From the NCBI RefSeq assembly GCF_947623445.1, contig NC_135242.1:8928001-8992000 (forward strand): DNA of 64,000 nucleotides, written 5' to 3'. A program made the translations under genes and the position numbers. Positions 26-62,105 of the stretch are shown piece by piece. The number at the start of each line of letters is the position of its first letter. The stretch's first letter is position 1. The notes under the pieces were generated by a model that saw nothing but the letters and a program-made list of their open reading frames with translations, searched no databases and had not been told where the DNA came from. The stretch comes from Clavelina lepadiformis. Taxonomy: Eukaryota; Chordata; Ascidiacea; Aplousobranchia; Clavelinidae.

Positions 26-183
26 GAAGCTGTAACGCTGGATCACTCGGCTCGCGAGTCGATGAAGGACGCAGCTAGTTGCGTGAATTAGTGTGAATTG
101 CAGGGACACATTGAGCATCGACGTTCTGAACGCGAATTGCGGCCTCGGGTTAATCCCGGGACCACGCCCGCCTCAGGGTCGTC
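26..183 (+). rRNA. 5.8S ribosomal RNA
   Basis: The stretch matches the universally conserved 5.8S core: GGATCACTCGGCTCG near the 5' end, then GATGAAGGACGCAGC, GTGAATTGCAGGG and CACATTGAGCATCGAC, then the GCGGCCTCGGGTT stem. It is followed directly by a GC-rich spacer and the start of 28S, the normal rDNA order. Ends are estimated from conserved motifs. The bases before about 26 would be the end of ITS1. The 28S part is incomplete, so this may be a dispersed or array-edge copy rather than a working unit. Confidence 0.9.
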
Positions 184-418
184 TGTAAAGCAATCCCGGC
201 GCACCCGTCGCCCGGGCGAATGCGTAGTCGGACGGAGACCTGTGTCTCCGCCGTCCCGTCGAAGTCAGCAAGGGTCCGGCACGCGATCGGATCGACGGCG
301 GCGCGACGGCGACGACGCGCGGCGGATCGACCTCGAAGAGGTGTCCTCGTTTCGCCAAGTCGCCGTGATCGATCGCGAACGTCATCGATCCTCGGCACGT
401 GTGACGTCTCTTACATTT
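184..418 (+). other. Internal transcribed spacer 2 (ITS2)
   Basis: GC-rich spacer of about 235 bases between the end of 5.8S and the conserved start of 28S. It is short for an animal ITS2. Open frames on both strands here are by-products of its base composition, not genes. Confidence 0.8.
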
Positions 419-529
419 CGGCCTGAGGTCGGACGAGACTACCCGCTGAATTTAAGCATATTACTAAGCGCCCGCGTCCTTCTGATCGAGGCTTCGTCCC
501 ATAGCGGGTGTCAGGCCCATGGCGTAATG
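419..529 (+). rRNA. 28S rRNA 5' end, internally deleted and truncated
   Basis: The conserved 28S start is clear: GAGACTACCCGCTGAATTT followed by AAGCATATTACTAAGCG. Directly after AAGCG, where GGAGGAAAAG should follow, the sequence jumps to CGCGTCCTTCTGATCGAGGC, which resembles a segment normally well over 100 bases further into the D1 region. It then leaves rRNA for AT-rich DNA near 530. This is a broken 28S end, and the unit cannot give a normal 28S. Confidence 0.75.
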
Positions 530-3500
530 ATGTAAAAATACAAATTCAATTATCCGTTTTTTTTGCTTATCCGGTCAGATTTTTGAAAATATTGACCCAA
601 CTTGACCGGATAATCGAGGAAGTACTGTACCAATATAATAAAAAATACAGGCTACATAAACATATAAACTAAAACTTTTTTAAGGTAACAAATATATTAT
701 TACTTGATGTTTAAATTACCTTGCACCGTCATGTAGATGCTTATTACTTTCGTAATTTCCAAAATTTATCATCATAATTTGTATGCTGTCTCTTAGCATT
801 ATTCCCTGCTCGAGGTATTGCTTAGTACGAACGATAGGGTTCTTTCCTTGTAGCAAACCACGCATTGGGTTTGCTGCTCCATCTGTGGCCCTTTTAAACC
901 CAATTGTTCGCCGAGCTAACAGTTGTACAGCCAACAAAACCATGTTTCACATTCCCGGTAAATTGTTAAGTGCTGAAGTTTTTAAAACAAATTCCTGCAT
1001 TTTTAACAAAAGGATGGAAAAGGAAGTTTGAACAAGCAAATAATGATGCATTGTATACAATAACATTACTGTTTCAGAACTTGACTGAAAGTGATAAAAA
1101 CACACAGTGGAAGGTAGACCTGTTACTGTTGTTAAATTAAAACCAAAATATAGATATGCCAAACTTACTTTTTACACTGCTGCTTGCATATTTAAATAAA
1201 TGCACAAGTTTGGTTTTCCTATATCTAACAATGAGAAGTTGCAATTTTTTTCAAACTTTCATCAATTGTAAAATATTTAAGGGTTGAATCACAAATTACT
1301 CAGTGTGTAGCATAAGGCTGAGAGAACACACTAGAAAAAAATAAGGCACTTTTATCATTTATATACTGTTTTTCTAAATGACTATTTCACAGTAAATAGG
1401 TAATGCAGCCTGTTGTTAAAGATAGGCGGTTAGGTTAGGAGAATAGGAACATGCAAAAGGTTGATTTTAGCTGTTTAAGGTTTTATTGGAGTTAGATTTA
1501 AATTAGAAGGTAGATATAGGTTAGGTTCAAATTTAAGAAATTTACTAAAACGAAATTTAAATTTCTGATTGATTGAAGAACTTTGCTGAATTTTCTTTAT
1601 AAAGAAAAGTAAGTATTTTCTACTGTGTTGTTGTAACAAAATGCTACACACAAAGTCAAAATCATTTGTAGTTTGATTTTTGTATGTTTCGCAATTGCCA
1701 GAATCAGAATTAACGTTGCGGATCATCGATGTTTAAACGGGTATAGGCCTATCACTCTGTCATGACACTGTTCGTTGATAAGTCTATCAGACGCCTTTCA
1801 AAATATTAAGATTCTACACAACGAGTAGGGTAGTGGTAGGCGATGTAAAGCCAGTTTTGTAATCAATCCAGTAATATTTTCTCATGACACATGTTAAAAG
1901 TACTAAATGCAGAGGTGGGCAGTCAATACTTAGTACCGTCGGTAACAGTATCTGTACTTGGCAAAAAATGTACCAATGGTTCCGGTATTCGATACTATTT
2001 TGAAAAAGTAGTTTGGTACTTTGTCGATACTTTTTGTGTGCAAGATGCTGAATGCAATGTTTGCCGCTATTATGTCAAAACATATGTGACGTTAATCGTT
2101 TGCAATTTAACTTGATATTTCTAGATTAAGAAGATCAACAAATGCTAAAATTAGTACAGTTTTAAGGATTAATTAACATGTATTTTTGAAAACATGCTTG
2201 TTAAAATTTTGAAATAATTATGTGAAAAGCACCGAGTACCGGGACCGACTAAAATGTCTTGAAAAAAGAAATTCTGTACAGAGATTCGGTACTTTTTCAA
2301 AAAGTACCGACGATAGTAATTCGATAATATAGTACCGCAGTACTGCCCACCTATGCCTAAATGACTCGACTTACGTCATGACAGATAGGCTATAACGGAA
2401 AAAGATTGCCTAGAGCTTCAGATAACAAAAACGGATATTTCTCTACAAAAACTACACCTCCTTGCAGGCTATAACAACTATCAACCAGAATATTTTGTAG
2501 ACAGCCATGACGTTAGGTTATCAAACAGTTCAATCCTACGCATAACATGTCCTGGCGAGAAAAGTTAAGTTAAACGCATTGACTTTACTTGAATCGATTC
2601 ACAACTCAAATTGACTCGAGTCAGAAAACATTACTTGGTTACTTACAACCCTGAGCAAGACATGGGCATAAGCGACTTTTTCCTTAACTTACGGTAGTCC
2701 TGTATCTTTTTTGCAATGAGCGTAATTCTAAAGCTGGCGCCAAGATATTTTAGCCTGACGCCATGCTGCGTTTTATACATGTGTGCTATCATTATGCAAG
2801 ACAGGTTTTAATATTTTCAATCTGAGGTTATAAAAGTAGATGTGAATTATTATGAATTATGTTAACTTAGAGTAATTTTATTTATTTAAAAAATAATAGC
2901 TTTTTTGAGAAATTCTCATCTCAAATCACGTGACATGATCTTATTGCAGGTATGTAACGTCCGTAAGCCATTACTCGTTTTCAATTGCAATCATTATAGG
3001 GATCTCCCCTCATAAGAAACGTTACATTTTTGTACACTTTCCACCTACAGTCGTATGGCGATGCTTGTCTTCAAATACTGTAATAAATTTATCTTGACTC
3101 TGTGTTCAGCATTTAATGAAAGTTTTTTGAAGCACTTGCAATAATGTAGCTCGTTCTTTGGGTTTAGTGGCCATGCTAGGCCTAGTTGTTATCAGAAAAT
3201 TTTTAGCCTCATGAGTATTTTCATGGACGTTTTAAGCCTTTTTGGCTTTGTCATTCAAAACTAGTAGTGATTTTCGTTCCTACCGCGAGAATGACTTGAT
3301 TGATTGTACTTGATTGTACATATATATTGGTGCTTTGGTGGCAAGTTTACAAAAAATAGGCCAACATTGCTTATTTTATTTACTTACAACTTGATGTTCT
3401 AATATGGATTTAATTGCTGAGGTCCCACTTGGCTCGGTTACAGCTCACAGGCATGCATAGTTATCACACCTGTTGGTTTAAATGGCTTCACTATCTATCA

Positions 3501-24800: not shown

Positions 24801-25327
24801 CTTTATTCTCCGCTGCTTTTTTTCTTCAACGCTTGGAATTACCGTGGGAATGTAGTATCAAATTTTCTTGCGCAGTCTATACATCTTTGGTGCTCAGTAA
24901 TGCTGTGGTGGTAAATGTGTCATCATATTTGACAGCTAAGTGTAACCCTGACGGATGACATCAATGCCAAGATGAAGTCCTACTCCCTTTCAAGGCAAGA
25001 TTGCCAGCGTATGACGTTGGGACAGCTTCAACTTATTCTCAACGACATGCACTCGAAAAAACAAGGTAATATTATATTGGACTTTATGTATAATATAATC
25101 ATGTTCTAAGCCTGCTAGCTGCTATCTTATAACAAGTGGCCATGACTGAGTTGGTGCAATTGTGCAACACTAACGTTTTGTTCATGTTGTAATTAGGTTT
25201 AAACGACAAGTTAATGGGCCTTCTGCTCGCTCGAGATGACCTTCAAACTGAACAAGACGCCAAATTGGTGGATGTTGAAGATGCAAAGGCTGTTATGAAC
25301 GCCGTAGGACCTGAAACTACAGTTTAA
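3857..25327 (+). CDS. IQCJ-SCHIP1: IQCJ-SCHIP1 fusion-type protein, 13 coding exons
   Basis: Exons: 3857-3935, 4485-4603, 4930-5037, 5172-5236, 7023-7103, 7398-7452, 18435-18589, 18817-19300, 23997-24100, 24189-24490, 24584-24732, 24936-25065, 25197-25327. All phases agree, giving 653 residues. The start follows an in-frame stop at 3851. The IQCJ part has an upstream IQ motif (AAICIQKYYRGYLGRR, about residue 75), then ENHQL and IIQRAWRRYHEAQ (about 152), as in vertebrate IQCJ. The SCHIP1 part has VPLMNW (about 333), EREAIRQKL, SLQICYIN, a serine-rich stretch, then MTLGQLQLILNDMHS and the C-terminal coiled coil with RDDLQTEQDA. In vertebrates this protein binds calmodulin and merlin (schwannomin) and acts at axon initial segments and nodes. 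Here the two parts lie in one collinear gene. The weakest junction is the exon ending at 7452 (AAC|GTACAG). Without it the IQCJ part would end alone after the IQ motif. Confidence 0.88.
5237..7022. other. Intron 4 of IQCJ-SCHIP1
   Basis: AT-rich intron. Near 5361-5420 a stretch with A-box-like and B-box-like motifs (GAGTTCGAC) could be the head of a tRNA-derived SINE, but the match is weak. Around 5640-5900 there are AAGTCAAG-type repeats, and near 6440 a TTTCGAAACATGTT motif. No exon or RNA gene is supported. Confidence 0.4.
8520..9195. repeat. Inverted repeat next to the duplicated IQ exon
   Basis: The reverse complement of about 8520-8605 aligns with about 9080-9195. Both arms share GTTCTCGT, then AATAAATTATAT, TTTCCTGC, CTAATT and a TTATGGTATTTA end, with a small insertion in the right arm. 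The arms are about 85-115 bases and the spacer about 470 bases. The exon duplicate lies just inside the left arm. The CGAAACATGTT motif in the right arm is common at the ends of some retroelements, but I could not assign a family. Confidence 0.55.
8610..8710 (-). pseudogene. Inverted duplicate of the IQCJ IQ-motif exon
   Basis: Read on the minus strand, about 68 bases match the exon at 7398-7452 and its downstream flank with 8 differences. The IQ helix reads SWRRYYEAQVSDKRNKQL instead of AWRRYHEAQLSGKQNVQL, then the same TGA stop. The donor GT used by the plus-strand copy is AA here, and the match decays just before the acceptor. Being antisense to the gene, it cannot be spliced into it. It is most simply a partial exon duplication carried in by an inversion or a repeat-mediated copy. 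Confidence 0.7.
10006..10252 (+). mobile_element. Truncated relative of the 1913-2352 MITE
   Basis: Shares the inner and right part of the first MITE: GATCAACAAnTGCTAAAATT, GAATTAATTAACATGTAT, GAGTACCGGGACCGACT, and repeated GGTACT/AGTACC motifs up to a CTATAGTACCGCC end. The left terminal repeat is missing, so the copy is 5' truncated. Confidence 0.65.
13551..13658 (+). CDS. IQCJ-SCHIP1: Alternative first coding exon of IQCJ-SCHIP1 (intermediate form)
   Basis: A 36-codon open stretch begins MCEMKLPPEMSQPRSSSKRR just after an in-frame stop (13548) and ends GDIPLE at an excellent donor, GAG|GTAAGA. It ends in phase 0, exactly the phase needed to join the exon at 18435. It has no clear acceptor, so it fits best as the first exon of a transcript starting inside the 11 kb intron. 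The joined product would be 520 residues, without the IQ motifs and with the whole SCHIP1 part. Vertebrate SCHIP1 also uses its own promoter downstream of IQCJ exons. I do not recognise the peptide itself. Confidence 0.55.
14854..15464. mobile_element. Pogo/Tigger-like MITE (CAGTCGAATCCGCTTAATTC ends)
   Basis: The 611-base element is bounded by TA on both sides. It begins CAGTCGAATCCGCTTAATTC and ends with the inverted version, GAATTAAGCGGATTCGACTG. The motif CCGAATTAAGCGG recurs near both ends. The CAGT tips and the TA target duplication are typical of the pogo branch of Tc1/mariner. No transposase frame was found, so it is non-autonomous. Confidence 0.85.
15503..15761. mobile_element. Short hAT-like MITE
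   Basis: The 259-base segment begins CAGGGTTTCCCAAACG and ends GTTGAGTAGCCCTG, the ragged CAGGG.../...CCCTG ends common in hAT MITEs. An internal GGTCCG/CGGACC-rich part follows the left end and precedes the right end. No coding capacity. Confidence 0.7.
15985..16155. repeat. GACTCGAGTC-rich dispersed repeat
   Basis: ACTTGA, GACTCGAG, ATGACTTGAGTC and CGACTCGAG motifs recur every 15-30 bases. Related pieces lie near 2360-2380, 2570-2650, 5660-5710 and 50650-50700. The family is not recognised. It may be the inner part of a MITE. Confidence 0.45.
19396..19890. mobile_element. Degenerate pogo-like MITE
   Basis: TA-flanked element beginning CAGTCAATCCCACTTAATAG and ending CCATTAAGTGGTGTTTATTG. 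The inner terminal repeat (CCACTTAAT/ATTAAGTGG) is clear but the tips have diverged. TTATTAGAG and TTATAGAG motifs recur inside. No transposase frame. Confidence 0.6.
20067..20165. repeat. Fold-back inverted repeat (about 35-base arms)
   Basis: The left arm (20067-20102, GGTGCTCAGCTGGTGAATT then AATTCTTTTA) and the right arm (about 20129-20165) are inverted copies with about three mismatches, separated by about 26 bases. The sequence ACCATGTTCTG occurs just before (about 20028) and just after (about 20170) the structure. It may be a fold-back MITE. Confidence 0.7.
23247..23603 (+). CDS. SCHIP1: Alternative first coding exon of SCHIP1 (short form)
   Basis: The 119-codon open stretch starts MLPNMTEVEVQL and runs through a region rich in Ser, Glu and Asp to SLRE. 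There a donor, GAG|GTAGAT, ends it in phase 0, which fits the exon at 23997 (KQKMEREAIRQKL). If not spliced, the frame would stop at 23648. A possible acceptor (ATTGCAG|CAT, 23217) precedes the ATG and could take a 5' leader exon or a trans-spliced leader. The joined product would be 390 residues, with only the conserved SCHIP1 core and coiled coil. Vertebrate SCHIP1 has several isoforms differing only in such first exons. The peptide is not itself recognised. Confidence 0.6.
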
Positions 25328-46933: not shown

Positions 46934-49730
<2,797 letters not shown>

Positions 49731-52562: not shown

Positions 52563-53149
52563 AGAATCCCTCGACTGCCTACAACCAAAGGGTGTTTTTC
52601 TGTAAGTGTTAAAAAGAATAAAGAAAGCGACTGGATGGTTATACATTGAGCGATGGTTCAAGGTTATGGATCTGCTTTCGATGGTTGTCTTATAATTTTG
52701 ACGTGCCGTTGATAAATATAATACGTCCCGAGATACATAAGTGTTTCCCTCAGTTGTTAAAACGATCACTTACAAGCATGTCTAAACGTGTCACAAATTT
52801 TCATTCATATCACTTCGTTATTAGTGATTATTTCATTAATGCCTTTTTTCTGTTCTAGTCAGTTGAAACTTCCATAGTTGTAAACTACAATCGACGACCT
52901 TAATTCTACAAGAAACTGAGTTTTATTCTGTAGTACACTTCAAAGTATTGTCAATTTAATGAAGAAATGGAATCAGAAGAAATCAACACTAAATTCGCAT
53001 TTACTGGTAACAACCGGGTTGGCATTCGAGTCAACAATCAAGGCTCATCTTCACCGAAATGAAAGTGGGTAAGCAACTCAAACAAATATAAACTTGTTTG
53101 ATCAATACAGCACGCATTAAACTTAGGACTTTCTGGCTGTGCAAAGTAG

Positions 53150-53266: not shown

Positions 53267-53739
53267 GTAAGGTTTGACTTGCTATTCCTTTCCAAACGAA
53301 AATAACTCACAAGTAAACTAAACCTACCACTGATTATAACTAAACAAAAAATCGTGTTCATTCTTCCACAGTGTAATGATTTTGTGCAAGCGAAAGTAGT
53401 TACACACAAACCGCAAGACTAATTCTTTTTAGTGTGCTCATGGACAATCATTGCAAAACCAATGCTAAAATTAGGAAAAAAACATTGTAGGATTAAATCC
53501 AAATCTTTGCTATTTGAGGAAAATCGGTAGAGATCTGACCCTATTCCAGGGGTATGAGTCGAAATCCTACTTTGCTTATCCTCCTTTTTCGATGTTTAAG
53601 GTGGTGTCCATGTTCTATTGCTGTTGCAAAACCAGTCTAAACAAAATATTTAAGCATATTTCAGTTACTAAAATTGGCTGGAAAGGCATTAAGGCATATT
53701 GATGATTGAGTTATGTTTACACACACAGGTAACATGATT

Positions 53740-53818
53740 GAAATAGTCAGAAAATATGCCGCCAAGTATCCGTCATGACTTTCTCAGCCGGTAATTCCAA
53801 AATTTCATCACACCATTC
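53740..53818 (-). ncRNA. C/D-box snoRNA, copy A1 (predicted 18S Um627 guide)
   Basis: On the minus strand: C box GTGATGA (53811-53805), D' CTGA (53787-53784), C'-like ATGACGG, D box CTGA (53750-53747), with a short TTGAA/TTCAA terminal stem. The 11 bases just before D' (TGGAATTACCG) are perfectly complementary to the universal 18S sequence CGGUAAUUCCA. Under the D+5 rule the modified base is the U of CGGU, equivalent to human 18S Um627 and yeast Um578 (guides SNORD65 and snR77). The D box lies 69 bases before a good splice acceptor, the usual spacing for an intron snoRNA. Confidence 0.85.
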
Positions 53819-54645
53819 AAAGCAGTTACCAGAATTATGCAGGACGCACAAGGTAATCAACAATATTTTGGTCCACTGATTCCTTTGGGACTGCACCCAC
53901 TTAAAATTTAGATACATGCTCGATCGAATATCTTATTATTTTGATAAATCATCAACAGGGTTGTAAGAAAATAATTTCCTCTAACAGTTAAAAAATCTTA
54001 CGACACAAGAAATTATGTCCATGCGTGCAATACCATGGTTATCCTGGTACGCTAATACAGTACGCTTTTTAACTATGTCAGGGATGCCAAACACATTTCA
54101 GTCCAGGAGCCACAGAGACCTTTTTAACAGCAAACCACTCAAATTGTGATCTTAAATTACTGTAGTATATGATGAGTAAAAAATGTTTCTTTTTGTTTTC
54201 GGTTAGTGGTAACTTTAACAATACGAAAGCATTGTAGTTACAACAAAAACTTTCATGATTGCGTTTCTGTAATCTTTAACATTTGGCAAAATCATCTGTG
54301 CACCACATGCTTGACACCCCTGATCTAACCAAATGCATGCATGATGCAAAAACTATGTTTAAAGTTTGACTAAGCAGTTCCTAAGTTCATATAAAAGAAT
54401 ATCCAAATACTTAAGCATGAAGCTGTTCCAACAACGACCTACTGTAAACTTACCTTTCCAAGCAGCGAAACGTCCAAGAGAGCTATTGCTGTTTACTAAC
54501 GGTGATGATAAACAAATACCTTTTTCAACGCAATATTTGTTTGGGTAAGTATTGTGCTACACTACTCTTTCTTGCACCTGAAAGAAAAAAATGCTTTGTG
54601 TCAATACAAAGTTGTCTATTGTAATATGTTTCAAGAAATATACAC

Positions 54646-54720
54646 AGCAGTCAGAAAATAAGCCGCAAATTTTCTGTCATAACCAATCAGACGGTAATTC
54701 CACATTTTCATCATCCTGCT
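54646..54720 (-). ncRNA. C/D-box snoRNA, copy C1 (predicted 18S Um627 guide)
   Basis: On the minus strand: C box ATGATGA (54714-54708), D' CTGA (54690-54687), C'-like ATGACAG, D box CTGA (54654-54651), closed by AGCAG/CTGCT. The guide before D' is again TGGAATTACCG. It is a diverged paralog of copy A1 with the same predicted target. The D box lies 73 bases before the acceptor of the 124-base exon. Confidence 0.88.
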
Positions 54721-54818
54721 TGTGTTTAACTGACTAGAACTAAAATTCTCCATGTAGAAATTTACTTGCATGGAGAGGCTATATATATGGCTTAGTAGTC
54801 ATAAACATTACACATATA

Positions 54819-55737
54819 CAGTGAGACCTCGTTAATCCGGACCACTTCGTTTCGTCAAAAAATGTCGGTTTAGCGGGGTATCCGGATTATCGGAAAGTAA
54901 AAAATCAATCAATCTTGCAAATGCAGTACCGTGTGCAAAACGCAGTATGCACCTTACTCCAATTCTAAGTACCAACTTTCTGGCTGGACAGCAACTAAAA
55001 TAAAATTATATTTTTTGTATGATCCGACCCAGTGTCGAACCCCAGAACCACCGTATTTAACACGAATGCTCTAAGCCAGAAGTGACGAACATGCGGTCGC
55101 AAATCGGTTTTACAACCGCTCTTGCATGGCGAAGCATTCCGGCGGGACCAGCAGTCTTGAACTTTCTTTGACCTGTTTCCAATCTTTGCGCAATGCGATA
55201 TCAAAAGCTGATAGCACGATTGAGTTGCAGTAGTATGTCTTCAATAGATTGCCGCACTCAACCGATGTAATGTACGTATATTTTTTGCGACCGAGGAAGC
55301 GTTGTTTGTTACTGTTGATGAACAATTTATTTTTTCGTTTCTAAAATACTGTACAGTATTTCATAGTAGGCTATGACTAAAAAGCTGTGCGGCTAAAATT
55401 TTTTACAAAGCGCAATGCTGTACAGTACTGTACTTTTGAATCAATAAAGACCGCAACGTTATTATGCGTAGATATTCGGCTATTGTTTCGTCAACTAACT
55501 ACATAGTGTATTAGAACAATCGTGAATCATTTTCGCTTAACTGTTAATAATCCGGTTTATCGAATTTTATTGCTATTGATTTAGCACATTTGTTCCAAAA
55601 CTTTCGTGTCGGAGTCGGACAGCGGGGTTTCCGGATTAAAGGGGTAAAATGCATAGGAAGAAATCCGTTCCCGGCAGTTTTGTGTCGGATAACGGGGATT
55701 CCGGTTGTTCGGGGTCCGGATTAACGAGGTCCCACTG
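54819..55737. mobile_element. Pogo/Tigger-like element, copy 2
   Basis: Begins CAGTGAGACCTCGTTAATCC and ends GGATTAACGAGGTCCCACTG, flanked on both sides by TA. It is the reverse-oriented near-identical copy of 47844-48760. It lies in the intron holding snoRNA copy C1, between a 36-base exon (55820-55785) and that snoRNA. Confidence 0.92.
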
Positions 55738-56013
55738 TATACTGCAACTCTAATGCAAGATTTACTAACAAGAGCAAATCTTACCTGCCTATTATTACAC
55801 CTGACTTCTTTCAAATGTACCTGCAAAAGCATAGAAAAGTAAATTCCTTTATCTTATTAAAAAATTAAAGCGGTTAAGCATCCATGTTCTATTGCTGTTG
55901 CAAAACCAGTCTAAACAAAATATTTAAGCATATTTCAGTTACTAAAATTGGCTGGAAAGGGATTAAGGCATATTGATGATTGAGTTGTGTTTACACACAC
56001 AGGTAACATGATT

Positions 56014-56092
56014 GAAATAGTCAGAATATATGCCGCCAAGTATCCGTCATGACTTTCTCAGCCGGTAATTCCAAAATTTCATCACACCATTC
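56014..56092 (-). ncRNA. C/D-box snoRNA, copy A2
   Basis: Tandem copy of A1: C box GTGATGA (56085-56079), D' CTGA (56061-56058), D box CTGA (56024-56021), with the same guide TGGAATTACCG. Its D box is 69 bases before the acceptor CCTTTCCAG at 55952. Confidence 0.85.
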
Positions 56093-56925
56093 AAAGCAGT
56101 TACCAGAATTATGCAGGACGCACAAGGTAAGTTATAATAGTATTTGGGTCCATTGATTCCCTTGGGATTGCACCCACTTGAAATTTAGATACATGCTCGA
56201 TCGAATAACTTATTGTTTTGATAAATCATAAACAGGATTGTAAGAAAATAATTTCCTCTAACAGTTAAAAAATCTTACGACACAAGAAATTATGTCCATG
56301 GGTGCAATACCATGGTTATCCTGGTACGCTAATGCAGTGCGCTTTTTAACTATGTCAGGGATGCCAAAACACATTTCAGTTCATGAGCAACACAGACCTT
56401 TTTAACAGCAAACCACTCAACTTGTGATCTTAAATAACTGTAGTAAATGATGAGCGTCAGTCAAGAAAGTTTCTTTTTGTTTTCAGTTAGTGGTAACTTT
56501 AACAATACGAAAGCATTGTAGTTACAACAAAAACTTTCATCATAGCGTTTATGTAATCTTCAACATTTATTAAAATCATCTGTACACCACATGTTTGACA
56601 TCCCTGATCTAATCAAATGTTTACATTACGCAAAAACTATGTTTAAAGCTTGACTAAGCAGCTCCTAAGTTCATATACAAAAATATGCAAACACCAAAGC
56701 ATGAAGCTGTTCCAACAACGACCTAAACTTACCTTTCCAAGCAGCGAAACGTCCAAGAGAGCTATTGCTGTTTACTAACGGTGATGATAAACAAATACCT
56801 TTTTCAACGCAATATTTGTTTGGGTAAGTATTGTGCTACACTACTCTTTCTTGCACCTGAAAGAAAAAAATTGCTTTGTGTCAATACAAAGTTGTCTATT
56901 GTAATATGTTTCAAGAAATATACAC

Positions 56926-57000
56926 AGCAGTCAGAAAATAAGCCGCAAATTTTCTGTCATAACCAATCAGACGGTAATTCCACATTTTCATCATCCTGCT
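56926..57000 (-). ncRNA. C/D-box snoRNA, copy C2
   Basis: Tandem copy of C1, unchanged across the boxes: C box ATGATGA (56994-56988), D' CTGA (56970-56967), D box CTGA (56934-56931), same guide. It sits in a 284-base intron between the 36-base exon (57176-57141) and the 124-base exon (56856-56733). Confidence 0.88.
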
Positions 57001-57563
57001 TGTGTTTAACTGACTAGAACTAAAATTGTCATGTACAGATTTACTTGCATGGAGAAGCTACATATGACTTAGTAGTCATAAACATTACACATATATTCTG
57101 CAACTTTAGTATAAGATTTAATATTAAGAGCAAATCTTACCTGCCTATTATTACACCTGACTTCTTGCAAATGTACCTGCAAAAAGCACAGAAAAATAAA
57201 TGCCTTTATCTTCCTAAAAAATTAAAAATATTAAATGGTCAAGCACAGCTTCAAAATAATACTCACCTACTTGATTTTTGCAGATGATGGAAAGATCAGC
57301 TTACACAGGACACAATTTTTTTAGCCGCTTTTAATTATTTATTGGCAAATCACAATGATACTATTTGAGTTCGCGTTTTAAGCAGTCCACAAATATCTAG
57401 CAAACCTCAGAACTAACTTTTGTGTTAACTACATTCAATTTTCATCTATTCTAAAGGAAGGCAAATTCAGACAACCAGAAACAGTTACTAGTTTATTTGC
57501 AGTACTGTAACAGATTCATGACTGTTTAAAGATAAGCTTTTATAGGTCACTTGAAAATCCCAT

Positions 57564-60500
57564 TTAATCCAACTGAAAACAAAAATTAGAGCATTAAATA
57601 GAAATAATTGAAAGTATATAAATGATTAACACACATTGTAACACATACATAACTGGCTAACTGTATATGTCAATAGCTGATCAAAAATGGTACCAATACC
57701 ATGATCGCATGACATTTTTTGTTGCTTCTTTGCATATTTCCATTTGTACACGCATTAATTTAATATCTATGTTACTGCATTTTAAACACTAACCTTTTGA
57801 AAGCCAATGTCCTTGGCAAATTCTCTGAAGCACTGACGAGAAATGTTCAATCCATATTTTCTGATGAGACCATGACGATTACCAGTAATACGACTGAAAA
57901 ATTAGAATTCAGAGTTTTGAAACAAAAATCGTATTAAATTTGTTGAGCAAATATGTTCCAAATACTGTAACATAAGATTATTAATAAATATACAAAAAAT
58001 TAAGATCTGTGTGCATGCTCTTATAAACAATGCATTACTTTTTTGTAAATGAAGTAATTTTCCTTAGAACAGCGGTTTTTAAACTGATTTGGACTGATGC
58101 ATAAGTAGAAAAGCATCAGGAAGCAGAAAAAGTATAGCTTAAACAACAAATTTTAAATATTATTGAAGTCTGTCCTGGGGATAGAGACATGTTGATTACT
58201 TGAACTGTAAGTATTTCTGATGACGGAGAGGTTGATCACATCAGCGACTATGCTTCCTCAGATACTTCAGTCGAAAGTGATAGTGAAGATGTTTCGTTGA
58301 CAGCTGCCACAAGTTCTTTTCTCTCTCGAAACAAATCCGTATGCTGGTCTTCCAGTCCTGTAGGACATTCCGGTGGCAGAGCTCCTGCTCGCAACATCAT
58401 CCATGCAACACCAGGCCTATCACGGTTTGCCAACAGGCAACGTGGTTCCGTTGTGGACTCATTTATGCTGTTTCTACGTCAACCACTCATAGAAACAATT
58501 TGTAAATGGACCAATGCAGAAGGAGAAGTTGTGTACAACAAGGAAAGAAACATGTGGAAGCTAAAGAGTTCAAGAGTTTTATTGGCATGGTAATACTTAT
58601 TGGAGTTTATAAATCAGCAAATGAAAATGCAACCCAATTTTGGAGTAAAGATGATGGCAGACCAATTTTCAACAAAATCATGAGTCGTGGAAGGTTTCAG
58701 CCAATACTGAGAGTTCTTAGGTTTAATGATGCAGAAAAAAGAAGAAATAGATCTTCGGACAAACTTCAACCAATCAGAGAAGTGCTGATTAGCTCCTATG
58801 CTTCAGAGGCCGATGCCCATTCTGGCAGTATATACCCTCTAAACCAGGTAAATACGGTATCAAAATTTGGACCATCTGTGATTCGAATACATATTATGCT
58901 TGGAAAATGCAGGTATACTTGGGAAAAAATGATAACGCTCCCCGAGAAGTCAATCGCACAAGAGTTCTCGACATGACAAAGGAGATTGAAAAATCTGGAC
59001 GAAATATTACGTGCGACAACTTTTTTACCAATCTTTCACTGGCACGAACACTTTTGGACAAAAAACTAACCATCGTTGGAACACTAAGAAGAAACAAACC
59101 AGAAATTCCGCTTCAATTTACAATGGCAAAAGGTAGGGAGGCCAAATTATTTGGGTTTCAAGATGATGCCATGATAGCCTGTGTTGTGCTGATGCTGTCA
59201 ACTAAACATTTCCAGCCAGATGTTAATGCAAGTTCTTCAGACAGAAAGCCGGAAGTTATATTGTACTATAACTCCACCAAAGGAGGTGTCGATATCTTGG
59301 ACCGGATGGTGATAACGTACACCTGCAAGAGGATGACAAGAAGATGGCCTGTTGCACTCTTCTACAATATGATCGACGTCAGTGCTGTAAATGCCTTTAT
59401 TGTATGGCTGGAGTTAAATGGTGAAAGCCCAAGCATCAGTGTGAAGAAGAGACGAAATTTCCTTCTAGAGCTTGCTGGCGTGAACACCCAACCTGACCCC
59501 TCGAAAGGTTTCAGTTTCTTCTGCATCAGCACAAAAAAGAAGCAACAAAGATGATCTTGACAATCCTCCCAAAACTAAAACGACAGCGCTTATAGCCTTT
59601 GTGACAGAAAAAAGGACAAGAAGACTAGTTTGGTTTGCTATATGTGCAAGAAGCACGTTTGCTCGGGACACTCCAAGACAATTTGACGTCCATGTGGCTA
59701 GTGCTGTTGCATTGAACATTGCTATCTTGCAAGTGTTATTTGTTACTGTGCTGTTGGTGTTGATTGTTAATTTTTTTCATTCTTTTACTGATGTTCGTTT
59801 ATTCTAATGCTTATGCATCTTTTGTTGGAATGTGTGATTGTACTATTTGCAAGAGTACTTCAAAATGATATTAGTTTAGAAGTAGTTCAAAATTTCATAA
59901 GGATTTTAACTGATCAAGCATGTATCGTATATGCGAAAGCTTATACCAAAACTAATAAAAATGACAGTTTAAAGTATTATTTTGCTATCCTGCATGAAAT
60001 GCAAGCATATACAGCAAAATTAAAACAATGTAGAATGGGGTCAATCAAATTGACCCCATTGGTTCACAACATTAGTTTTTTTCATGGGATAGATACATGT
60101 TGATTACTTGAACTTAAAGTATTTCTAAGTCTTTGAGGTGTGTTTGTGAGCGCCAGCATCTTTTTCATTAACTGGGCAGGAAGTTTTTTGGAAAATATTA
60201 ATTTTGTCAAAAACAATATTGTAATATATTTTGGCCTTTTTTTATGGGTAATGACTATGTACTATTTTCTGTGAGCTTTCACTGTGCCAAATTTTAAGTC
60301 CAGTAACAATATATCAAAAGTTGGTTAATTCATGTTGTATATTTTCCTGTTACACCGAAAAAAAAAACTGCGTCAATCTGAAACTACTATTTTCCTTCCT
60401 TGCAAATGAGTGAGCTTGCTCATGAACCTTTCTGCAAAACCGGGAATTTTGCATGGAGGAAAGTTAATTGCGCATATGACAGTTTGACTTAAGCTGCAAA

Positions 60501-62105
60501 AAAACAAATACTTGGTCACGTCATAACACCAATTATTATAATCTGACAAAATTATGACACAGTATTGCATAAAAGCAACTTGTATTTTTATAGCGCTCAA
60601 ACAAAAAAGGCAGCAAGTTATAGCAGTTAACAAATGCTTGGTCTTTTAGTTGTTTGTACAGTATGCTGTTGCATAATGCTTCAACCATTTTTAAAAACAG
60701 AAAACAATGCAATTCCGTTCAATTTTATTCTCTGCACTTAATTGGACCAATATGCCAGTTTTGATTTTGTCCGATCAAGCTGGGCTGACGACAATTTTTA
60801 ACTTTGTGACCTTTCTGAGCGGCTTAAGAAAATTAACCATAATAGAAAAGTGAGGCAGCCCCACGCACAAGATTTATCAATATGCCTACTGTAAAGTACG
60901 GCAGATTTGGACGGGAAATTGTGCAATTGTGAAAGCAAGACACTATCTGCATGTTCATAATTTTGGTATCTCTTTGGTACAAAATGGTATCGTAAAGGTG
61001 ACAAAATGCCCAAAATACGAACCTCCGCCCTAAAAATAAGGACGAAAGTGAAAATAAGGACATTTCTTAGAAAAAAGGACAAACATATTTTCTAAGACAC
61101 GGACCTTTAAAATAAGGACAAATCTTAGAAATAAGGACGGTATGGCAACCCTGCTTATATCTTTATTTATCATAAATTCGCTTTCAAATAACTAACTTTT
61201 ATTTATTGTAAATCAAAGTGAAAATAAGTTTGTAGTGTACATTGATGAACTTTGTGCATGCAGCTGTCACACTTTTCATTAAGAACCGAGTGCTTGCAAA
61301 TTTGCTTTTATTTTAACACTGATTTATAACAAAGAAAAGTTGTTTGAATGCTAAATTATGATAAATCAAACCAAGAGCAAAGTTTTGTAACTTTAGAACC
61401 ACGTTGTATTTTGACCAGTAGGTGGTAAATAGCTAAACTTACTTATAAATTTTATCAGTCAGTTCCCTACTTTAAAGTTCTCTTTCAATGCACCAGATAA
61501 ATGAGATCCGTCAATACAGCGTAATACTTCTAATACAGCCCAGAATATGGGGCAATTCTCAGATCAGACTAACTTTCATTAGGGCCCTCAAATGATGAGT
61601 ACGGAAAAATCCAAAGAAAATTCAAGTGAGTTAAGACGCAAATTTTAGCATGATGCCGTATGATAAATCCTTAATTCGTTGTTCATTTATTACTAAATAT
61701 AATGTGCGGACTGCAGGTTGTTGAAGATCGTTTGTGCAGACGCTACACTTTCCTCTACGGTTGGTTTTAACAAGGTAAGCTACACTGTTTTTAAATTTTG
61801 CCCTGGACCTGAAATTAAATATCAGAATGCTAGAAATTTAAAAAAGAACCAACGTGGGCTAATAATTTTTATTGTTAAGTAGTGCACGTGCGATCGAAAA
61901 AATCTTACCACCTGAAACAAGATGGCAGCCGTATCTCGGAAAGCAAAGGGTCTATTCAGTTAAGTGGTCTACTAGCAAACTTTCATGTTATCCTAGAACA
62001 AACTCAGCAGTTTCTTTTCGAAATAAAACAAACTATTTCTTACCAAAAACGGGAACCGCGGCCGTATTTTCGCGGATGAGAATTCCAAATATTTTGGTGA
62101 CCCAT
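57564..62105 (-). CDS. RPS29: 40S ribosomal protein S29 (uS14), 3 exons
   Basis: Exons on the minus strand: 62105-62044, 57893-57794, 57572-57564, phases consistent, 56 residues as in human. It reads [20 protein letters not shown], Cys, [33 protein letters not shown], then LD and stop in a 9-base last coding exon, the same split as I recall for mammalian RPS29. The protein sits in the 40S head near the mRNA channel. Most eukaryotic S29 proteins bind zinc with four cysteines (21, 24, 39, 42). Here 24 is Thr and 39 is Ser. The gene is otherwise intact and keeps its introns, so it is not a processed copy. A short pyrimidine run (CTTTCTTT) lies upstream of the ATG, as expected for a ribosomal protein gene. 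Intron 1 contains a piggyBac remnant. Confidence 0.95.
58175..60130 (+). mobile_element. Decayed piggyBac DNA transposon in RPS29 intron 1
   Basis: The interior is recognisable piggyBac transposase (about 58218-59700): a Ser/Asp-rich N-terminus, [79 protein letters not shown], and a Cys-rich tail CYMCKKHVC. The three catalytic Asp positions (ICDS, CDNF, GVDI) are kept. The frame is broken by a shift near 58565, a deletion with a frame change near 58800, and further shifts near 59500-59600. GATAGAnACATGTTGATTAC recurs near both ends (58182 and 60087), and a GGGGTCAAT palindrome lies near 60040. A flanking TTAA duplication was not confirmed. It runs opposite to the host gene. Confidence 0.85.
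60780..61153. mobile_element. hAT-like MITE end (CAGGGTTGCCATACCGTCC)
   Basis: The right end, read inverted, is CAGGGTTGCCATACCGTCC followed by repeated AATAAGGAC/TTAGAAA motifs. This resembles the TAGGCTTACCATACGTCCC end of the 38469-38779 element. The left end is uncertain. Confidence 0.45.

Follow-up and report, generated by a model that had tools for sequence, protein, structure and literature searches.

The question raised by this locus of the ascidian Clavelina lepadiformis is what kind of gene would carry four box C/D snoRNA sequences on the minus strand between positions 53607 and 57300, and how the four came to lie together; positions throughout are those of the window, the whole 64,000-nucleotide stretch of DNA that was analysed. 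Very probably, the locus is a non-coding host gene that follows closely after RPS29 on the minus strand, with introns from which four C/D snoRNAs would be processed.

The first-pass annotation of this DNA had described two types of C/D snoRNA, A and C, each present twice. All four sequences were found to contain C, D', C'-like and D boxes, a closing stem and, just before D', the guide TGGAATTACCG, and the 11-base antisense said to be common to them was recovered exactly in each at the minus-strand positions given in Table 1. The closing stem joins the C box RUGAUGA and the D box CUGA in all four, with contiguous pairing of 5 pairs in type A and 6 pairs in type C when G-U pairs and small offsets are allowed. 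An antisense element of a C/D snoRNA consists of about 10 or more nucleotides directly 5' of D or D', and 12 pairs precede D' in each of the four. Judged by boxes, stem and antisense as read from the sequence, the class is that of the box C/D snoRNAs, whose members are stable RNAs of 70-90 nt that associate with fibrillarin, Nop56, Nop58 and 15.5K. Copies within a type are almost identical, as A2 does not differ from A1 over the 83 bases compared and C2 differs from C1 at a single position of 87, close to the D box. The predicted folds are not unusually stable (z of -1.31 for A and -0.07 for C), and unusually stable folds are not expected of C/D snoRNAs.

Table 1. Positions of the snoRNAs, inferred host exons, transposon and neighbouring gene in the window.
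Feature	Positions	Strand	Details
RPS29, upstream neighbour	57564..62105	-	coding exons 62105-62044, 57893-57794, 57572-57564
Inferred host exon 1	57267..57294	-	CTTTCC start (5' end guessed by eye); ends TAG/GTGAGT
Inferred exon 2	57141..57176	-	acceptor TTTTTGCAG, donor CAG/GTAAGA
snoRNA A1	56923..57000	-	C box 56994-56988, guide 56982-56972, D' CTGA 56970-56967, D box 56934-56931
Inferred exon 3	56733..56856	-	acceptor TTTCTTTCAG, donor AAG/GTAAGT; identical in both units
snoRNA C1	56013..56091	-	C box 56085-56079, guide 56073-56063, D' CTGA 56061-56058, D box 56024-56021
Inferred exon 4, unit 1	55887..55951	-	no GTRAG donor before next acceptor
Inferred exon 2', unit 2	55785..55820	-	
TIR element, 919 bp	54819..55737	-	TIR CAGTG[G/A]GACCTCGTTAATCCGGACC, TA flanks, intron 2' of unit 2
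snoRNA A2	54643..54720	-	guide 54702-54692, D box 54654-54651
Inferred exon 3', unit 2	54454..54577	-	
snoRNA C2	53739..53817	-	guide 53799-53789, D box 53750-53747
Inferred exon 4', unit 2	53607..53677	-	repeated part only

To place the target, the 18S sequence of the same genome was used, in which all four D' guides pair perfectly over 12 nt within the context GCAGCCGCGGUAAUUCCAG. Counting D'+5 leads to the U of CGGU, as had been claimed, at index 581 of the extracted 18S (counted along the extract, which may be a base or two off the numbering of mature 18S), with duplex energies of -18.4 (A) and -18.0 (C) kcal/mol. When each guide was shuffled 200 times, with G-U pairs and one mismatch allowed, the real score of 27.8 lay above the 95th percentile for both D' guides: for C it exceeded all 200 shuffles (maximum 26.4), and for A it exceeded the 95th percentile of 24.4, the best of the 200 shuffles reaching 29.6. 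As the D' guide also pairs, less stably, at 18S index 152 (-13.6 for A and -15.3 for C), a single site is the likeliest and not the sole reading. The predicted methylation target is thus likeliest to be the 18S U at index 581, the Um578/Um627 position. In the available parts of PMC3511168 and PMC8817022, this site is yeast Um578 (guided by snR77), human Um627 (HBII-135) and Arabidopsis Um580 (snoR77Y), the last being numbered U582 in the corresponding part of PMC8053127; the Dictyostelium equivalent is Um571, with guide CD21 (PMC8817022, likewise in part).

Two further pairings with 18S were considered and set aside. As second 18S guides, the D-box guides scored at best 16.8 (A), 20.4 (C1) and 22.4 (C2) over the 1398 readable 18S bases (the rDNA repeat includes a 5,000-base stretch that reads N), all below the 95th percentiles from 200 shuffles each (25.2, 24.6 and 26.4, respectively), and no 18S target is therefore claimed for the D-box side. 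Extra pairing of C/D snoRNAs is described in the portion seen of PMC5389607. Such pairing of the C'-D interval upstream of the target (GCGGCU/AGCCGC) was at chance level, being equalled in 282 (A), 205 (C1) and 169 (C2) of 2000 shuffles, and downstream pairing was equalled in 649, 144 and 117 of 2000, respectively.

Consensus donors and acceptors surround all four snoRNAs, which are accordingly placed in predicted introns. The D box had been said to lie 69-73 bases before a strong acceptor; the intronic placement held, and the range became 69-74, the distances from the end of the D box to the first exon base being 74, 73, 69 and 69 nt. In vertebrates, the D box of splicing-dependent C/D snoRNAs typically lies about this far from the exon. 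Since exon 4 of unit 1 lacks a clear donor, it may either be skipped or form one exon with exon 2', and the terminal exon 4' may run on towards the next host-sense AATAAA after the last snoRNA, at 52927. In agreement with the earlier description of host exons lacking a sustained reading frame, none was found in three splice models, where stops occur in all frames and the longest ATG ORF is 22 aa, exons 2 and 3 being free of ATG. The exons were also examined for structured RNA, which was rejected (z of 0.15 for exon 3, 0.16 for exon 4 and -1.81 for exon 2). With snoRNAs predicted to be intronic and exons without a conserved frame, the locus would be classed as a snoRNA host gene, the missing donor of exon 4 in unit 1 notwithstanding.

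Given the neighbouring gene, which the first-pass annotation had not mentioned, the snoRNAs might instead derive from a spliced RPS29 read-through transcript or a polycistronic unit, without an independent non-coding host. RPS29 is intact (56 aa in three exons; Pfam Ribosomal_S14, E 5.3e-15) and lies on the same strand, its first AATAAA about 200 bp before inferred exon 1 and the start of the snoRNA locus, and tunicates are known for trans-splicing and operons. Ribosomal-protein genes are also common snoRNA hosts, according to the part of PMC13228274 available. Against this, the RPS29 stop is followed by two AATAAA signals (57497 and 57343), and a start-like, pyrimidine-rich CTTTCC, noticed by eye as a candidate for a 5'TOP promoter, occurs at about 57294, before the first donor at 57266; both argue weakly against read-through, which is regarded as unlikely, if worth keeping in mind. 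Under the preferred reading of an independent host, transcription would start at a promoter separate from RPS29, splicing would free the introns, exonucleases would trim them to the four C/D snoRNAs, and each of these would assemble with fibrillarin into an RNP whose D' guide would direct 2'-O-methylation to a single 18S U, in the 530 loop at the Um578/Um627 position.

The presence of two copies of each type is accounted for by a tandem duplication. The recent duplication of a unit of about 1.35 kb that had been proposed was borne out, the unit measuring about 1.36 kb: the first repeated segment recurs at a spacing of 1356 bp and the other segments at 2274-2284 bp, a difference due to the 919-bp TIR element in unit 2, which the first-pass annotation had likewise left unmentioned. 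This element is presumably pogo/Tigger-like. It has at least 39 further near-full copies in the genome (40 of 709 candidates were scored), and the nine copies compared are 95.9-99.9% identical to it, the closest having one mismatch in 919. From this sequence likeness, the insertion looks recent, and by parsimony it occurred after the unit duplication, since the element is absent from unit 1. Types A and C are themselves alike in the C'-D interval, where 18 of 23 positions (C2) or 17 of 23 (C1) are identical, a likeness that none of 20000 shuffles equalled for either C copy. This upholds the claim that A and C look like an older duplication, and speaks for either such a duplication or a function that the two types have in common in that half. 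The order of events would then be an older A/C duplication, a tandem duplication of the 1.36-kb unit carrying both, and entry of the TIR transposon into unit 2.

Units 1 and 2 were compared with the transposon left out and gapped columns uncounted, introns being taken from donor to snoRNA. The introns differ at 66 of 758 aligned sites, compared with 1 of 170 in the snoRNAs (Fisher p against introns 2.3e-5), 1 of 225 in exons 2-4 (5.2e-7) and 2 of 126 in the intron tails that lead from the D box to the exon (0.0032). Low divergence is concentrated in two tracts; each begins shortly before a snoRNA and extends over the tail and the exon that follows. The recurrence of such a tract at both snoRNAs suggests constraint, and the inclusion of the intron tails suggests gene conversion; with two copies compared, the exons, as little diverged as the snoRNAs, could owe this to selection or to gene conversion. 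A further proposal, that the host exons serve a purpose of their own which depends on their sequence, and that the C'-D half common to A and C guides a second target, is considered improbable.

These comparisons bear on the possibility that unit 1 alone is productive and that unit 2 is a decaying copy, its RNA shortened by the transposon. The TIR element carries two host-sense AATAAA signals (55571 and 55331) and exon 4 of unit 1 has no close donor after it, which would fit such a history. However, A2 equals A1, C2 is one base off C1 and exon 3' is identical to exon 3. With so recent an apparent insertion, decay of unit 2 would not yet be visible; on balance, a defunct unit 2 is judged distinctly unlikely, and a host productive from both units continues to be preferred.

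Other repeats were observed in and around the locus. A copy of the TIR element, 96% identical, lies at 47834-48765 (+) of the window (C3:8975834-8976765). An older element with ends CAGGGATGTCAAA...GGCATCCCTG, presumably hAT-like, occupies about 56354-56607 (-) in intron 3 and has a copy in unit 2; its presence in both units places it before the unit duplication. A third candidate snoRNA, 'B', had a C-like and a D-like box in unit 1 (intron 3, about 56550-56460), and was rejected because unit 2 has both boxes altered and the candidate region is part of this element. Intron 3 also contains an old interspersed repeat at about 56149-56329 (-), with 22 other genome matches of 68-86% identity. In the large first intron of RPS29, two overlapping transposase ORFs (58506-59554, +; Pfam DDE_Tnp_1_7) are found, which are presumably piggyBac-like. 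At 27-535 (+), the window holds a 5.8S-ITS2-28S fragment from which about 132 nt of 28S present in other copies are missing; 24 similar rDNA fragments, 90-95% identical, occur elsewhere on contigs C1-C7 and C9, one of which (C7:2650311) falls in a region of tandem rDNA array.

The specificity of the snoRNA features was assessed with several searches. The 11-mer TGGAATTACCG, searched with up to one mismatch allowed, matched the window five times, each time exactly, where shuffles averaged 0.77. The fifth match, at 24834 (+), showed no C/D anatomy on reading and was absent from a combined C/D and guide scan. To be counted in that scan, a C box had to be followed at 45-115 nt by a CTGA D box, with 4 bp or more of closing stem and a guide pairing over 10 bp or more with the 18S of the same genome (1398 readable bases) or the window's 5.8S. 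On both strands of the window it returned four matches, which were the four snoRNAs, while neither the 20 simulated windows nor the reversed window gave any. When the stem was no longer required, the count stayed at four in the window and came to five over all 20 simulated windows. As A1/A2 and C1/C2 are copy pairs, these matches amount to at most two independent types. Genome-wide, the exact extended 16-base motif TGGAATTACCGKCTGA occurs in four places in 209 Mb, all at this locus, with none in the control. A looser pattern gave 10 matches, six of them elsewhere, against four in the control; the six were rejected as further loci, since none has a CTGA within 3 nt of the guide. Motif matches in viral contigs numbered 27.

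At gathering level, the sole Rfam match in the window was 5.8S and no snoRNA family was found, so that the covariance search with SNORD65/snR77 suggested in the first-pass annotation gave no support at that score. With an E-value threshold, snoR77Y (RF01178) matched both A copies at 35.4 bits and the C copies at 27.2 and 25.4 bits, against a cut-off of 52. A genome search with the same model at E<=10, in which 62 of 111706 first-look candidates were scored, gave six matches, the best four being the four snoRNAs; of the 14 prokaryote control genomes, 10 also gave matches at this E-value, none of which exceeded the cut-off. The E-value results give the best model per clan, here snoR77Y in place of RF00571 and RF01181, and the claim is therefore one of the same kind and target, not of proven descent from SNORD65. 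By target and guide, the four would be snoRNAs of the SNORD65/snR77 kind. That boxes and guide are chance or pseudogene relics, as the Rfam scores below threshold might suggest, is very improbable, given the stem-requiring scan that was empty in every simulated window and a divergence between units far lower in the snoRNAs than in the introns.

SNORD65 is not among the snoRNA families listed in the available part of the Didemnum genome paper (PMC8704543), so a tunicate member may have gone unlisted; homology pipelines using Rfam cut-offs would also miss the Clavelina snoRNAs. No paper naming the locus was found in the literature searched, most subscription journals being outside its coverage. 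The locus is probably an instance, from a tunicate, of an ancient guide for rRNA methylation, and a clean case of C/D copy gain through unit duplication. It also offers, within a single locus, a natural test of whether selection or gene conversion preserves the exons of a non-coding host. It leaves the understanding of such guides unchanged.

Among known systems, SNORD65/HBII-135 (RF00571), snR77 (RF01181), snoR77Y and Dictyostelium CD21, together with Rfam clan CL00057, are box C/D guides of the same 18S uridine in the sources as available, and the Rfam consensus of snoR77Y likewise has the 11-base guide just before D'. Unlike members of that clan, the Clavelina snoRNAs fall under the gathering cut-off and form two diverged types, each present twice at one locus, and their C'-D interval is not visibly common with the plant snoR77Y consensus. 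Site and guide are a deeply conserved known pair in the parts of PMC3511168 and PMC8817022 seen, and in this respect the locus is ordinary. As host, it resembles UHG/SNHG genes and Drosophila Uhg1-8 (named in the accessible portions of PMC13228274 and PMC11405852), in which one intron after another likewise holds snoRNAs and the exons lack a coding frame. Mammalian SNHG exons are described as mostly neutral (PMC11405852, in part), whereas the Clavelina host exons are nearly unchanged between units, a contrast behind which gene conversion may stand. For human C/D snoRNA families it is usual, according to the part of PMC8178906 consulted, that several copies occupy different introns of a single host, and the Clavelina arrangement is similar. 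In contrast to those human cis-duplicated families, however, the Clavelina duplication took in the whole snoRNA-exon unit and not only the snoRNA.
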